A DNA stretch of 40,238 nucleotides from Acidobacteriota bacterium (GTDB lineage Bacteria > Acidobacteriota > UBA4820 > DSQY01). The DNA is taken from positions 1-40,238 of the forward strand of contig JAKBES010000008.1 of assembly GCA_021833665.1 (NCBI GenBank). The letters run 5' to 3'. A program made the position numbers and the translations under genes. Of the stretch, positions 9,865 through 37,341 are shown one piece after another; the first letter of the stretch is position 1; the number at the start of each line of letters is the position of its first letter. The notes beneath the pieces were generated by a model, which was not told where the DNA came from, did not search any database, and worked only from the letters and a program-made list of their open reading frames with translations.

Positions 9865-10010
9865 GGGACACCTGACCATCCAAAACCTGGGCTTCGCCTG
9901 CCCCGCCCCCCCCCGGCATGGGTTGTCTCATGAGGCGCCGGCGACAACGGGTGGAGGCCTTTTGGGGATTGCCACCGCGAGGCGCCATGGAGCGGGCCGA
10001 ACCGGCGGAA
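9865..10010. other. Intergenic spacer between convergent genes
   Basis: Non-coding stretch after the TPR gene and before the lipoprotein terminator. It includes a run of nine C at 9906-9914. I see no convincing plus-strand terminator or gene here. Confidence 0.5.
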
Positions 10011-10043
10011 AGCGAAAAGGCGCCCGGCTCTGACCAGGCGCCT
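10011..10043 (-). terminator. Rho-independent terminator of the lipoprotein gene
   Basis: On the minus strand the inverted repeat AGGCGCC / GGCGCCT (arms at 10037-10043 and 10018-10024) is followed by TTTTCGCTTT. It lies 27 bp after the stop of the lipoprotein gene. Confidence 0.7.
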
Positions 10044-10069
10044 CGTGGGTTCGGAGCTGCGGGGCGAGG

Positions 10070-12413: not shown

Positions 12414-12452
12414 GTGAAGAGTGAGTGGGGAGTGAGGAGTGAGGAGTGAGGA
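12414..12452 (+). repeat. Heptamer tandem array (GTGAGGA-like) spanning the reductase-xerD junction
   Basis: Units in order are GTGAAGA (12414), an 11-mer GTGAGTGGGGA (12421), then three copies of GTGAGGA (12432, 12439, 12446), after which the sequence breaks to GAAGCAC. The array fills the gap between two same-strand genes and contains the predicted GTG start of the recombinase (12439) and its GAGG-type ribosome-binding sequence. Confidence 0.9.
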
Positions 12453-13362
12453 GAAGCACCTGAACGCCGAGAAAGAGAAGGCTCCCTGGCCCAACGAACT
12501 GGCCCTATTCCTGGACCACATGACGGTAGAACGGGGTCTTTCGCCCAGGTCGGTGGAAGCTTACAAGAGCGACCTTCTCCGTTTTTTCACCCACTGCAAG
12601 AAGGCGCCGGCCGAGGTGCGCCGAGAGGACGTGAGGGCGTTCATGGCGGGCGAACACTCCGCCAGGAGAGCCGCGTCCACCGCCGCCAGGCGCCTCGTGG
12701 CGATCCGCTCCTTTTATCGGTTTCTCATGCTGGAACGCAAGGTACCCGCGGACCCCACGGAGAACGTGGATCCCCCAAGGGCTCTCAAGCGGCTTCCCGG
12801 CTACCTCACGACGGAGGAAGTGGAGCGGCTCCTTGCCGTGCCCGATCCCTCCAGGCCTCTCGGGTTGCGCAACCGGGCCCTCCTGGAAGTCATGTACGCC
12901 ACGGGGATCCGGGTCTCCGAGCTCACGGGCCTCACCCTCGATCGGATGAACGCCGAGGCGGGCTTCGTCCTGGTCATGGGCAAGGGAAGCAAGGAGCGTG
13001 TGGTGCCCTTGGGCGAAGTGGCTCAGGACTGGGTGGCGCGCTATCGGTCCGAAGCCAGGCCGCTGCTTCTCAAGGGCCGCTCCGCTCCGGCGCTCTTCGT
13101 GACGGCTCGCGGAGGAGGCATGACCCGGCAGATGGTGTGGATCATGATCACCTCAAGCGCCCGCGCCGCCGGCATTACCAAGCACCTGAGCCCGCACACC
13201 CTGAGGCATTCCTTCGCCACGCACTTGCTGGAGCACGGAGCGGACTTGCGCGCGGTCCAGATCCTCCTGGGCCACGCCGATATCTCCACGACCCAGATCT
13301 ACACCCACCTGGAGCAGGAACGCCTCAAGCGGATCTACAGGCAGTTCCATCCGAGGGCGTAG
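12439..13362 (+). CDS. Tyrosine recombinase XerC/XerD
   Basis: A 307-residue tyrosine recombinase that most likely resolves chromosome dimers at dif during division. The N-terminal SAM-like DNA-binding domain (about 18-105) precedes the catalytic domain, which has the full set R158, K183, H253, R256, H279 and nucleophile Y288 ([15 protein letters not shown], then [14 protein letters not shown]). The length fits Xer rather than a phage integrase. I cannot tell XerC from XerD by eye, though the single-copy style resembles XerD. GTG 12439 lies in a repeat unit; no other good in-frame start precedes the domain. It converges on a DUF4190-like gene with only 21 bp between stops. Confidence 0.9.
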
Positions 13363-22552: not shown

Positions 22553-22771
22553 GGTTCTCCCCCCTTTAGGCAGGTTATAGTTTACACCATACCCGGCCGT
22601 TACGAGCCCCACCGTGGGACTTTGCTTTCGGTAGATTCTTCTGGACGATGGGGCGGGCCAAGCCGAGCTGGCGCCTCCTTCCGCGCGGCGACCACCTGCT
22701 CCGCCCCATCACGGCGGGTTGCCCGGGAGGGCCGCGGCGGAGGGCTGCGCCGCCCATCGCGCGGCGGCCGG
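22553..22771. other. Intergenic region upstream of the PLP enzyme gene
   Basis: About 220 bp without a supported gene. On the minus strand TATAAC (22579-22574) could serve as a -10 box for the PLP gene, but I found no matching -35. The rest is GC-rich with short inverted repeats and no clear coding pattern. Confidence 0.4.
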
Positions 22772-22809
22772 CAAACATGAACGAGGGCGGGCTCGTAAAC
22801 CCGCCCTCG
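22772..22809 (-). terminator. Strong Rho-independent terminator after the peroxiredoxin gene
   Basis: On the minus strand a perfect 10-bp stem CGAGGGCGGG / CCCGCCCTCG (arms 22800-22809 and 22782-22791) with an 8-nt loop is followed by TTCATGTTT. It lies just after the peroxiredoxin stop. Confidence 0.85.
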
Positions 22810-22831
22810 CCGGTGTCCCGCAGTGCAGCTG

Positions 22832-33575: not shown

Positions 33576-35237
33576 ATGGCGCAGGTGCAAGCCAGCCGCG
33601 GAGAGCTCTGGAAGAAGTACTACGACATCAGCCAGGACCAGCTCCAGGAGCTGGACCGCCAGATCGAGGCTCTCGGCCAAGCGCCTTGGGAGCAAGGCCC
33701 CCTGAGATCGGTCCAGCGCGTCTTCCACAACTTCTCCGGTTCGGGCGCCTTGTACTCCGCTCCCCAGGTGAGCGCCCTGGGCGGGGAAGGCGAATACATG
33801 TGCTCGAGCATCCTTCTGGCGGGGCGGGCCATCGGTGAGGGTGAGCTCCAGCAGATCGAAGGCCTGGTGCGCCGAATACGAGCCGAGTTCCAGAACCTCA
33901 TGAACGCCGCGGCCAAGGCGTCCGCGCGTCCGGCCAAACCCGCGCGCGGCATTCCCCTCCTGTTCCTCCTCGCCCCCGAGACCCCCGAAACGAAGGCTCT
34001 TGCGGAGTATCTGAGCAAGCGGCGCGTCCAGGTGGAAATTCTGCCCACCATGGCCGCGGCCGAGCGGAGGCTGGACGCGGGTCTGCCCGATCTCGTGGCC
34101 GTCAGTCTCAAACTGGACGGCGGCTCGGCCTACGATTTCGTGCGAAGCCTGAGGATCATCGAAGGGGAGCCTTCCATCCCCGTTCTTCTCCTTGGCGAGA
34201 GCCAGCGCTTCCTGGACAAGGTCGAAGCCATTCACTGCGGCGCCGATGGTTTCGTGGCGGCCCCTCCCGACCCCGCCACCGTCCTCAAAAAGTTCAAGGC
34301 CATCACGGCCAAGCACAAGGGGGTGGCCTCCAAGATCCTGGTGGTCGAGGACGATCCGGCCCAGGCGCGCTTCGTGGAGGAGTGCCTCGTGACAGGCGGG
34401 TATCAGGTCAGCGTCTGCCAGGACCCGTCTCTTTTCGAGGCCGACCTCTACGCGTTCCACCCCGCCCTGGTCTTGATGGACGTGCTCCTTCCGGGAGCCA
34501 GCGGTTACGACCTCGTGCGATTCATGCGGCAGGAGGAAGGCTTCGCGGCGATCCCCGTGATCTTCATCACGACCGAGGGGCAACGCCGAAGCCAGATCCT
34601 CGCCGCCGAAGCGGGAGGAGATGACTTCCTGGCCAAACCCGTCACGGCGGAAGATCTTCTCTCCATCGTGCGGTCCAGGCTGGCGAGGCACAGGGGTCTG
34701 CAGGACCTGATGGACCACGACGACCTGACGGGGCTTCTGGCTCATACGCCTTTCCTGCGCGAGGCCCGCCTCTGCCTGACCCGTTACAGCCGGCGGAAGA
34801 TCGCCTACGCCGCGGTTTTGTTCCAGGTGGATCGCCTGGACGAGCACGCGGCCCGGTACGGCGCCAAAGCGGGTGACACACTCGTAGTGGGCCTCGCCAA
34901 GTTCCTCCAGCGAAGAATTCGCCAGACGGACGTCATGGGCCGGTACGGAGACCAAGAGCTCTCGGTCGTCCTGGAGCACCTCTCGGAAACGGACGCCCTG
35001 CGGCTCATCCAGCGCCTGCAACAGGAGTTCCTGTCCATCGAACATCCCATCGGGGGAGATCGCAATCTCCGGGCCACGTTCAGCGCCGGCATCGCCATGG
35101 CCGGCCCTCACATGAAGACCCTCAAGGACTGGCTCGATCACGCGGGCGCGGCCCTCCAAGACGCCGTTCGGCAGGGCGGCAACAGGACGATTTTTTTCGG
35201 GCGGGCCGGCGGTGAGGCTACTTCCCCATCATCCTGA
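33576..35237 (+). CDS. Hpt / pseudo-receiver / receiver / degenerate GGDEF signalling protein
   Basis: A 553-residue multidomain protein. Residues 1-115 look like an Hpt domain with candidate H51 (FHNFSGSGALY). Residues 125-245 form a receiver fold with S177 where the phospho-aspartate should be (DLVAVSLKLDG), so it is a pseudo-receiver. Residues 252-370 form an intact receiver with D259/D260, D302 (LVLMDVLLP) and K354. Residues 382-545 are a GGDEF-like domain whose signature reads GDQEL (458-462) in place of GG(D/E)EF, so diguanylate cyclase activity is unlikely. It could be a phosphorelay scaffold. The start follows AAGGAGG by six bases. Its 3' end overlaps holA by 20 bp tail to tail. Confidence 0.85.
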   Translation: MAQVQASRGELWKKYYDISQDQLQELDRQIEALGQAPWEQGPLRSVQRVFHNFSGSGALYSAPQVSALGGEGEYMCSSILLAGRAIGEGELQQIEGLVRRIRAEFQNLMNAAAKASARPAKPARGIPLLFLLAPETPETKALAEYLSKRRVQVEILPTMAAAERRLDAGLPDLVAVSLKLDGGSAYDFVRSLRIIEGEPSIPVLLLGESQRFLDKVEAIHCGADGFVAAPPDPATVLKKFKAITAKHKGVASKILVVEDDPAQARFVEECLVTGGYQVSVCQDPSLFEADLYAFHPALVLMDVLLPGASGYDLVRFMRQEEGFAAIPVIFITTEGQRRSQILAAEAGGDDFLAKPVTAEDLLSIVRSRLARHRGLQDLMDHDDLTGLLAHTPFLREARLCLTRYSRRKIAYAAVLFQVDRLDEHAARYGAKAGDTLVVGLAKFLQRRIRQTDVMGRYGDQELSVVLEHLSETDALRLIQRLQQEFLSIEHPIGGDRNLRATFSAGIAMAGPHMKTLKDWLDHAGAALQDAVRQGGNRTIFFGRAGGEATSPSS

Positions 35238-36207
35238 GCAGGTGCCTCTCGACGATGGCCCATGGCGGCCCGGGGTCGCCCTTCAAGGCCAGGTCCAGCT
35301 CGAAGAGCGCGCCCAAGGCTTTCCGAACGCGGGTCTCGGGCCACTTGGAAGCGACGCCGAGGAGTTTCTGGGCCGGGAAGGGATGGTTGAACCCCAGGCT
35401 CTTGAAGGGAATGTCCCGCCGCTCCGCCCCTCGCACCTCCAGGCCGTGCATAAGCAACAAGGACCTGAACTGCTTGGCGAGCATGCCCACGAAGAGGAGG
35501 GGCACGGAATCGGGATCCTGGGCGATACGCTGCAGGAGGTCGAGAAAGGGCCTCACCTCGCCCTTGAGGAACGCATCCTGCAGGTCCCACTGCTGGGGCG
35601 TCCCGCCGGCGCCCAGAAGGGCCTCCACGTCCTCCGCTTCAAGGCGCTTCTCCTCGTTCCTGTATAGGCACAGAAGGTCCAAGGCGGAGACGAGCCTCCC
35701 CACGTCTCCGCAGGCCCATTCGTCCAGGGCCGCCGCCGCCGCCGGGGCGATGGAGAAGCCTTCGGCGCGCAGGCGCTTGGTAACGTACTCTCGGCCGTTG
35801 CGGGGCGTGCACGAGCGCGCGGGAACCTTGTCCATGAGGGCTTTCCAACGCGCCGGGACCTTCTTCTCGGAGAGGTCCCCTACCACTTCTACAAGCAGGG
35901 CGGTGGATTTCGCGGGGTTGTCCAGATATCGGCCGAGGGCCTTCAGCAGATCGTCGGAGGCCGATTCGGCCTGCCTCAGGCGAACCACCTGGCGTTCGCT
36001 CCACATGGGGAGGGTATTCAGCTCTACGCCGAGCTGGCCCGGATCGAGGCCGGCCGCTGAAACGTTCGCCGCTCCGTCCTCGCCGCCCCACCGCTTGGCC
36101 CACCCGCGGGAGGCTTCATCCAGGAAGCGGCCGTCCTCCGCCCATAGGAGAAGGTTCTGCGGATAGTTCCCCGCCCCCCCCTTCTCCTTCTTCTCATCAC
36201 TCCGCAC
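35218..36207 (-). CDS. holA: DNA polymerase III delta subunit
   Basis: A 329-residue clamp-loader subunit that opens the beta clamp. It shows HolA-like features: an N-terminal segment with NLLLWAEDGRFLDEA, the LPMWSERQVVRLRQAES strand-helix, a middle segment around GDVGRLVSALDLLCLY, and a C-terminal collar domain (WDLQDAFLKGEVRPFLDLL, then LAKQFRSLLLM). Family identity is weak at sequence level, but the pattern is consistent throughout. The only useful in-frame start is GTG 36207, inside a heptamer array. Upstream is oppC (48 bp), and downstream it overlaps the receiver gene tail to tail. Confidence 0.85.
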   Translation of the reverse strand: MRSDEKKEKGGAGNYPQNLLLWAEDGRFLDEASRGWAKRWGGEDGAANVSAAGLDPGQLGVELNTLPMWSERQVVRLRQAESASDDLLKALGRYLDNPAKSTALLVEVVGDLSEKKVPARWKALMDKVPARSCTPRNGREYVTKRLRAEGFSIAPAAAAALDEWACGDVGRLVSALDLLCLYRNEEKRLEAEDVEALLGAGGTPQQWDLQDAFLKGEVRPFLDLLQRIAQDPDSVPLLFVGMLAKQFRSLLLMHGLEVRGAERRDIPFKSLGFNHPFPAQKLLGVASKWPETRVRKALGALFELDLALKGDPGPPWAIVERHLLRMMGK

Positions 36208-36267
36208 TCCTCACTCCTTTTTACGTTTCACTTTTCACTTTTCACTTTTTACTTCTCACTCCTCTAC
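36194..36267 (-). repeat. Heptamer tandem array (GTGARRA-like) at the oppC-holA junction
   Basis: On the minus strand, from oppC toward holA, the units are GTGAGAA, GTAAAAA, GTGAAAA, GTGAAAA, GTGAAAC, a 10-mer GTAAAAAGGA, GTGAGGA, GTGCGGA, GTGATGA, then GAAG. An imperfect GTAGAGGA precedes them. The oppC stop (TGA) and the holA start (GTG at 36207) both lie in repeat units. Confidence 0.9.
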
Positions 36268-37341
36268 CCTCGGGTCCAGCGCGTCGCGGACCCCATCGCC
36301 CACGAGATTGTACGACAGAACCGTGAGGAAGATGGCGGCGCCCGGGAAGAGGCCCAGCCACCACTCGTCCCAGTAACGCGTCACGAGGTTGAGGATGTTG
36401 CCCCAGGAAGGATCGGGGGGCTGGACCCCGACGCCGAGGAAGGAGATGGCCGCCTCCATGAGGACTGCACCCGCCACGTCGAAGGTGGCGTTCACCAGGA
36501 GGGGCGTCATGGCGTTGGGCAGAATGTGCCGCAAGGCCAGGCGAAGGGGCGAAGCGCCCAGCGCCTTGGCCGCGGCCACGAAGTCGGCTCCTTTCATGCG
36601 CATGAATTCGGCCCGGGCGTACCTCGCCATGCCCGTCCAGGAGGTGGCGGCGATGACCACGGTGATGGTCCAAATGTTGAGGTACTTGGGGTCCATGACC
36701 GCCACCGCCGCGAGAATGAGGAAGAAGGTGGGAAAGCAGGCCATGACTTCGATCAGCCTTGATACGATGAGGAGATCCAGCCAGCCGCCGGCGTAGCCGG
36801 CCACGGCCCCCACCGCCACGCCCAGGAGGCCCGAGAGGCCCACGGCCAGGAGGCCCACGAGCAGGGACACCTTGGCCCCGTGCAGAACCCTGCTCAGCAC
36901 GTCCCGGCCGCTGTCGTCACAGCCGAAGTAGTGGCCGGTGCGCCAAGACGGCGGCGTGTTCACGTCGTCGAGGCGCTGCTGGAAGGGCGAGAAGGGGACC
37001 GGCGGAAGGAGAACGGAGCTGACCTTGGGATCGGGACGGGTCCTCTGGTTGAGGAGCCAGTCCGGATCCTCCATGAGGCGCAGGCTCACGGCATCCCGTT
37101 TCAGAAGGCGGTTGAGCGGGAACAGGCCGCGGAAGGCCGTAAAATGGGCCGCCCCTTCGTAGCGAATGAAGAGCGGTTCGTTGTTGGCCAGGAGCGGAGC
37201 GAGGTACGCCGCGAGCGCCAGAAGGACAAGGAAGGCGAGACCCTGCACTGCCCCTTTGCGCCGGGCGAAGGTCTGGAAGGCCGAAGGCCCGGGCGCGCCG
37301 TCTTTGGCCTGCTCCCCGTCACGAGGACCCGCGGTTCCCAT
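36256..37341 (-). CDS. Peptide ABC transporter permease, OppC/YejE-like
   Basis: A 361-residue inner-membrane permease of the binding-protein-dependent type. After the first membrane segment (about 33-51) comes a periplasmic loop of over 90 residues, starting NNEPLFIRYEG, longer than in classic OppC and reminiscent of YejE. Five further membrane segments follow; the ATPase-contact 'EAA' loop reads AAAKALGASPLRLALRHILP. FLGVGVQPPDPSWG is the usual OppC C-terminal signature. ATG 37341 begins two bases after the oppB stop. The stop lies in the heptamer array before holA. Confidence 0.9.
   Translation of the reverse strand: MGTAGPRDGEQAKDGAPGPSAFQTFARRKGAVQGLAFLVLLALAAYLAPLLANNEPLFIRYEGAAHFTAFRGLFPLNRLLKRDAVSLRLMEDPDWLLNQRTRPDPKVSSVLLPPVPFSPFQQRLDDVNTPPSWRTGHYFGCDDSGRDVLSRVLHGAKVSLLVGLLAVGLSGLLGVAVGAVAGYAGGWLDLLIVSRLIEVMACFPTFFLILAAVAVMDPKYLNIWTITVVIAATSWTGMARYARAEFMRMKGADFVAAAKALGASPLRLALRHILPNAMTPLLVNATFDVAGAVLMEAAISFLGVGVQPPDPSWGNILNLVTRYWDEWWLGLFPGAAIFLTVLSYNLVGDGVRDALDPRVEE

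Follow-up and report, generated by a model that had tools for sequence, protein, structure and literature searches.

A GTGARRA heptamer array at the oppC–holA junction of an Acidobacteriota genome and its probable use as the holA start

Introduction

In an Acidobacteriota bacterium, the stop codon of oppC and the start codon of holA lie in one tandem array of GTGARRA-like heptamers. A second such array, elsewhere in the same 40,238-nt stretch of DNA (the window), holds the start of xerD. Are these arrays translation signals in their own right, or intergenic repeats that genes have come to use? Many bacterial genomes have an excess of heptameric repeats for which no cause is generally accepted, and this lineage separates the explanations. 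We conclude that the oppC–holA array is probably a slippage-prone, lineage-specific intergenic heptamer repeat that has been co-opted as the ribosome site and start of holA.

Two published repeat families are relevant. Heptameric GGGAATC and GGGGA(C/T)T repeats of unknown function occur in Xanthomonas and Nostoc (Rehm et al. 2015, PMC4692102). They lie in sense within 50 bp of a stop codon or in antisense upstream of a start, always nearer to the neighbour on their 5′ side. TAACTGA direct repeats occur in Beggiatoaceae, cyanobacteria and Bacteroidetes, and the forward repeats overlap the end of an ORF by up to 18 nt (MacGregor 2015, PMC4679880). The literal string GTGAGGAGTGAGGAG had no match in the literature text searched.

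The Array at the oppC–holA Junction

The first-pass annotation of this DNA described a minus-strand GTGARRA array containing the oppC stop and the holA GTG. Both are present, but the array (36194..36259, minus strand) is less regular than that description implied. Read from 36259 down to 36190, its nine units are GTGAGAA, GTAAAAA, GTGAAAA, GTGAAAA, GTGAAAC, GTAAAAA and, after a 3-nt break in register (GGA, 36215-36217), GTGAGGA, GTGCGGA and GTGATGA, followed by GAAG. Four of the nine match GTGARRA exactly, five have one mismatch, and nowhere in the array do three exact units occur in succession. Apart from this reading of the units, the array is supported by its presence in a congener, G002, and by an excess over shuffled sequence: the window has 15 two-unit matches with at most two mismatches against 2.1 expected, and none of 100 shuffles reached 15.

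The gene oppC (36256..37341, minus strand) encodes a peptide ABC transporter permease with the Pfam domains OppC_N and BPD_transp_1; its called start is at 37341, and the longest ORF extends to 37932. Its TGA stop (36256..36258, minus strand) comes from the first array unit, giving a 4-nt overlap of oppC with the array. The DNA polymerase III delta subunit gene, holA (35218..36207, minus strand; NCBIfam TIGR01128, 149.9 bits against a cut-off of 80), begins 48 nt from that stop with a GTG (36205..36207, minus strand). From the upstream in-frame stop to the conserved region, no other ATG, GTG or TTG occurs in this frame. An in-frame TGA lies 6 nt upstream of it and the next in-frame start (36103) falls inside the conserved region, so it is the only credible start. 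An AGGAG formed by the array (36214..36218, minus strand) is a candidate Shine–Dalgarno (SD) sequence with a 6-nt spacer to the GTG. The predicted N-terminus is MRSDEKKEK, and the initial ~13 residues (MRSDEKKEKGGAG) form a variable tail. As read from the sequence, the array supplies the end of oppC together with the predicted start and a candidate ribosome site of holA. Since all frames close in the array and the start lies within its last two units, the holA frame should not shift with the number of units upstream.

Starts within Arrays and the Frame Arithmetic of the Unit

The holA start had been placed in the penultimate unit, as at xerD, and this is correct at both positions (36207-36205 and 12439). 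The sister array at xerD (12414..12452, plus strand) consists of GTGAAGA, GTGAGTG with a register shift, GTGGGGA and three GTGAGGA units, and it is also found in G002 and G003. The gene starting in it (12439..13362, plus strand), earlier labelled xerC/D, encodes a tyrosine recombinase that scores above the cut-off of the XerD model TIGR02225 and fails the NCBIfam XerC model. Its predicted N-terminus is MRSEEKHLN. The likeness of MRSEEK in XerD to MRSDEK in HolA is confirmed and is a reading of the heptamer unit.

With a kinase-like gene and a D-2-hydroxyacid dehydrogenase gene, there are four independent loci with the start in an array, in three genomes, or seven sites counting orthologues in G000 (the genome of the window), G002 and G003. 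This set excludes G002 L146, where the start is probably over-extended and the frame passes through a second repeat arm, and L102, which has two units and none upstream of the start. The dehydrogenase start lies in an 8-nt ATGAGGRR array (L195, G000:C267 near 8910; L197, G002:C91 near 5104). Each of its units holds an ATG start and a TGA stop, making it an octamer counterpart of the GTGARRA starts.

The phase of these starts is limited by the code. Seven is 1 mod 3. Reading from a GTG in a perfect array, the frame remains open if the array ends after one or two units and runs into an in-frame TGA if it has three or more. This leaves only the last and the penultimate unit as places for a start, since a third unit within the ORF would bring in a TGA stop. 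All four independent loci use the penultimate unit, which under an even choice has a chance of 1/16, and two of the four had generated the hypothesis. The recurrence of this geometry, which had been taken to speak against coincidence, is supported, and the preference for the penultimate phase survives only in a weaker, code-limited form. The last-unit phase is permitted by the code yet occurs at none of the four loci, which counts against our proposed explanation. A further supposed regularity, that the arrays end in GAAG, is true of the oppC–holA array but is no signature: GAAG follows only 3 of 147 arrays, two of them orthologous xerD sites, and we rejected it as an array terminus.

The same arithmetic restricts overlaps at gene ends to 4, 11 or 18 nt, with 12, 9 and 15 cases, respectively; a single 25-nt overlap belongs to a degenerate array. 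Throughout (GTGAGGA)n, an AGGAG stands 6 nt ahead of each GTG. Among 441 genes of this genome, the spacer after AGGAG or GGAGG has its mode at 6 nt (58 cases; 5 nt has 42 and 7 nt has 51); the gene caller gave a small bonus to SD-like motifs, which affects the height of this peak but hardly its position. The heptamer can serve as a start site because its sequence combines a stop, a start and an AGGAG at the genome-modal spacing. A search of the genome bin with a 16S 3′-end pattern gave no match.

Conservation in Relatives

The nearest named relative is Acidobacteria bacterium WY4.bin4 (G002, L031), whose HolA is 92% identical. The xerD and holA arrays are at syntenic places in it (JAKAKG010000203.1) with changed lengths: the gap holding the array is 32 nt in the window and 21 nt in G002 at xerD, and 48 and 68 nt at holA. 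The differences, 11 and 20 nt, are not exact multiples of 7. Among the other gaps, 16 of 20 compared agree within 1 nt. Two further window spacers differ strongly in length from G002, 9865-10069 being 205 nt against 414 and 22613-22831 being 219 nt against 144. Since the window comes from a 408-contig metagenome draft, an assembly artefact or coincidence has to be considered. We regard this as next to inconceivable given the same arrays at syntenic places in another genome and the far fewer matches in shuffles, and it is refuted by the conservation in G002.

The holA GTG is at the same place in L034 and L031, and the aligned codon is ATG in L043 and L032. Homologues across the family align only from about residue 11–14 in HolA and 8–18 in XerD, so these tails are dispensable. 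The first-pass annotation attributed the likeness of the two N-terminal peptides only to the repeat DNA, which is too strong. Without an array, holA of G001 reads ATG AGG GGT GAT GAA AAC AAG (MRGDENK), holA of G010 has a GTGA overlap start and MRKSEEKKE, and xerD of G006 has a GTGA overlap start and MKLRSEEEKR. Translation of two heptamer units gives the MRSxE peptide, but no array is required for it to exist. The arrays either grew from two-unit seeds at tight junctions or shrank back to such seeds.

Another origin can be considered, in which an ancestral NTGA stop/start overlap of an operon junction was tandemly duplicated into RTGAGGA units and the start arrays descend from a translational-coupling site, not from a general intergenic repeat. 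Array-less relatives of three of the four loci do have NTGA overlaps: for XerD, GTGA in G005 and G006; for HolA, GTGA in G010 and G012 and TTGA in G009 and G011; for the kinase, ATGA or GTGA. The dehydrogenase junction in G000 and G002, with its 8-nt ATGAGGRR repeats and an ATG start within the array, would fit, as would the two-unit seeds in array-less holA of G001 (ATGAGGG GTGATGA) and xerD of G006. However, overlaps of four bases are frequent, with 53 pairs of neighbouring genes in the G000 sample, which makes them weak evidence, and the same picture would result if arrays in G001 and G006 had been lost down to two units. Duplication of an overlap also leaves the antisense and convergent arrays, much of the family, unexplained. 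We consider this origin possible but doubtful. The junction in the window itself differs from NTGA coupling by termination and reinitiation: the unit contains the GTGA motif, and relatives use NTGA overlaps at these junctions, but the oppC stop and holA start are 48 nt apart and do not overlap.

Genome-Wide Placement

GTGARRA is abundant in this genome, with 200 two-unit and 100 three-unit matches, making about 100 runs of at least two exact units. It is likewise abundant in the same-genus G002 (162) and G001 (24) and in G003 (116), with few or none in the rest of the phylum. Placement statistics cover 173 arrays in four related genomes, with genes from a hexamer gene caller whose starts were not curated. 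The DNA sampled was 0.57 Mb of G000 chosen around arrays, stretches of G002, G003 and G006, and 0.2 Mb of G000 contigs without listed arrays; except for this last set, the sample is array-biased. A control with the reversed pattern is uninformative for GTGARRA, which read backwards gives the same array.

In 71 of 83 gaps with a sense array, the array reaches the preceding stop or comes within 12 nt of it, where random placement within the gap would give 24.5. The earlier annotation predicted enrichment at gene starts, and this is refuted: only 6 of 77 overlap the following start (10.5 expected), and 9 of 77 lie at or within 12 nt of it (19.8 expected), a depletion. The arrays strongly prefer gene ends and have no preference for gene starts. 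In either orientation, the array is closer to the neighbour on its own 5′ side, by 121 to 20 among 141 gaps (p = 8e-19), and 45 of the 141, about a third, are antisense to both neighbours.

These figures bear on whether the arrays are dedicated translation elements, that is, start cassettes that set initiation or coupling of the downstream gene. The content of the unit would suit that role, G002 retains the GTG and array at both window loci, as does G003 at xerD, and the four start loci share one phase. However, the arrays avoid the zone upstream of starts, and in the antisense third the unit yields neither a start nor an SD. Heptamers lacking GTG or TGA also obey the same position rule, 122:29. 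We therefore consider a dedicated start element unlikely.

A Polarity Independent of Motif

The rule extends well beyond GTGARRA. Period 7 dominates the intergenic DNA sampled, with 277 arrays; period 8 follows with 80, and no other period exceeds 31. The autocorrelation peaks at lag 7 with harmonics at 14 and 21. The preference for the 5′ neighbour shown by those other heptamers is also found in period-8 arrays (61:12). The polarity is 15:1 in G000 contigs without a listed GTGARRA array, 16:3 in G009 (a different family of the same order) and 6:0 in G005. The heptamer arrays on the G009 contigs L211-L220 that give its purine polarity are of other motifs, AAAATTG and AAGGCTG among them.

Both edges of a spacer take part. 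Among G000 spacers of 90–500 nt, arms in the left half are purine-rich in 59 cases and pyrimidine-rich in 7, and those in the right half in 6 and 56; purine-left with pyrimidine-right occurs in one spacer 26 times and the opposite combination never. Many spacers pair a purine heptamer array on the left with a pyrimidine array of another motif on the right, as at L064 14912-, L077 509+ and L086 6069-. The pyrimidine heptamers at right edges include TCCCAAA, CTCGCGT, TCAACTC and CTGCTCC.

A further possibility is that the repeats are selected as G-quadruplexes, or as elements forming some other structure close to gene ends, the proposal made for the GGGNATC heptamers. In its favour, the position rule is shared with the G-rich repeats of Xanthomonas and Nostoc. 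However, arrays with no GG, such as GTGAAAA types, follow the rule as well as those with GG (41:8 and 91:15), and most of the oppC–holA array is without a G tract. Nor are the opposite arms of one spacer specially complementary, native pairs being no better than swapped (p = 0.14), and a hairpin between arms was rejected as a general explanation. The position rule held with and without G tracts and over many motifs, which makes G-quadruplex selection unlikely as the general cause; as the reason for the arrays studied here, we consider structure highly improbable.

Spacer cores as a shared mobile element were also rejected: gap-to-gap matches in G000 are mostly repeat-like or terminators, with no common core. 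G003 has 283 non-periodic gap-to-gap matches, far above G000 or G002, which may represent a separate dispersed intergenic repeat.

In spacers of this acidobacterial order, 7-bp and 8-bp arrays of free motif have the purine-rich strand pointing away from the nearest gene, at both edges and for any gene orientation. This may imply one boundary-directed process, mutational or selective, independent of motif, G-quadruplexes and translation signals, with the GTGARRA starts as a by-product; we put this forward tentatively, as somewhat short of an even chance.

Discussion

Our preferred reading, a slippage-prone repeat co-opted at holA, can be put in steps. Slippage or tandem duplication would presumably lengthen and shorten the arrays within the few bases that separate genes. 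They favour the sense position at the preceding stop codon, the 5′-neighbour rule. Very short spacers, that of oppC–holA among them, would be taken up entirely by the array, which would enter the next gene. Each GTGAGGA unit carries TGA and GTG, and together with the unit after it an AGGAG placed 6 nt before a GTG. With three such units in a row, no frame of the upstream gene stays open and a well-spaced start is available in all frames, and for that reason the insertion would be tolerated and its final part used as the holA ribosome site and start. The penultimate phase and the shared MRSxE peptide would follow because at most two units fit in the downstream ORF before an in-frame TGA. That the cell uses the array AGGAG and GTG at holA is presumed. 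The location, frames, spacing statistics, conservation and length change in the congener and genome-wide position bias are the observed basis for this reading. Slippage alone does not account for the purine-rich strand pointing away from the nearest gene across motifs and orientations.

These arrays belong with the intergenic heptameric simple-sequence repeats of Rehm et al. 2015 in the dominance of period 7, the 5′-neighbour rule, and the sharing of loci with length variation. As in Xanthomonas and Nostoc, the unit is 7 bp in at least two copies, mostly non-coding, at the same junctions in close relatives and of variable length. They differ from the G4-forming GGGNATC class, which has three-G tracts in each unit and a preference for four units, whereas GTGARRA has at most GG. 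Unlike the published arrays, GTGARRA is mixed with many other heptamers, GG is not needed, arrays often occupy both spacer edges, the unit holds a start, a stop and an SD, and a few arrays serve as gene starts. The 5′-neighbour rule was published for GGGNATC; here it is independent of motif and of GG tracts. What is new relative to the published heptamers is the other motifs, no need of G tracts, both-edge arrays and occasional use as a gene start.

The TAACTGA repeats share the 7-bp intergenic arrays, the stop codon in the unit and the 18-nt limit on overlap with ORF ends. However, that unit is different, and its arrays are found chiefly a few nucleotides before gene starts, with no SD, whereas sense GTGARRA arrays are depleted within 12 nt of starts and carry AGGAG.

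A neutral repeat can become a gene start and ribosome site with the protein unaltered beyond its tail. Matching N-terminal peptides such as MRSEEK call for caution, as they can reflect shared repeat DNA and not a shared signal. At L074 11744-11851 (minus strand), heptamer units compose a 24-nt higher-order repeat (GTGAGGAGTGAGGAGGGTAAACCA).
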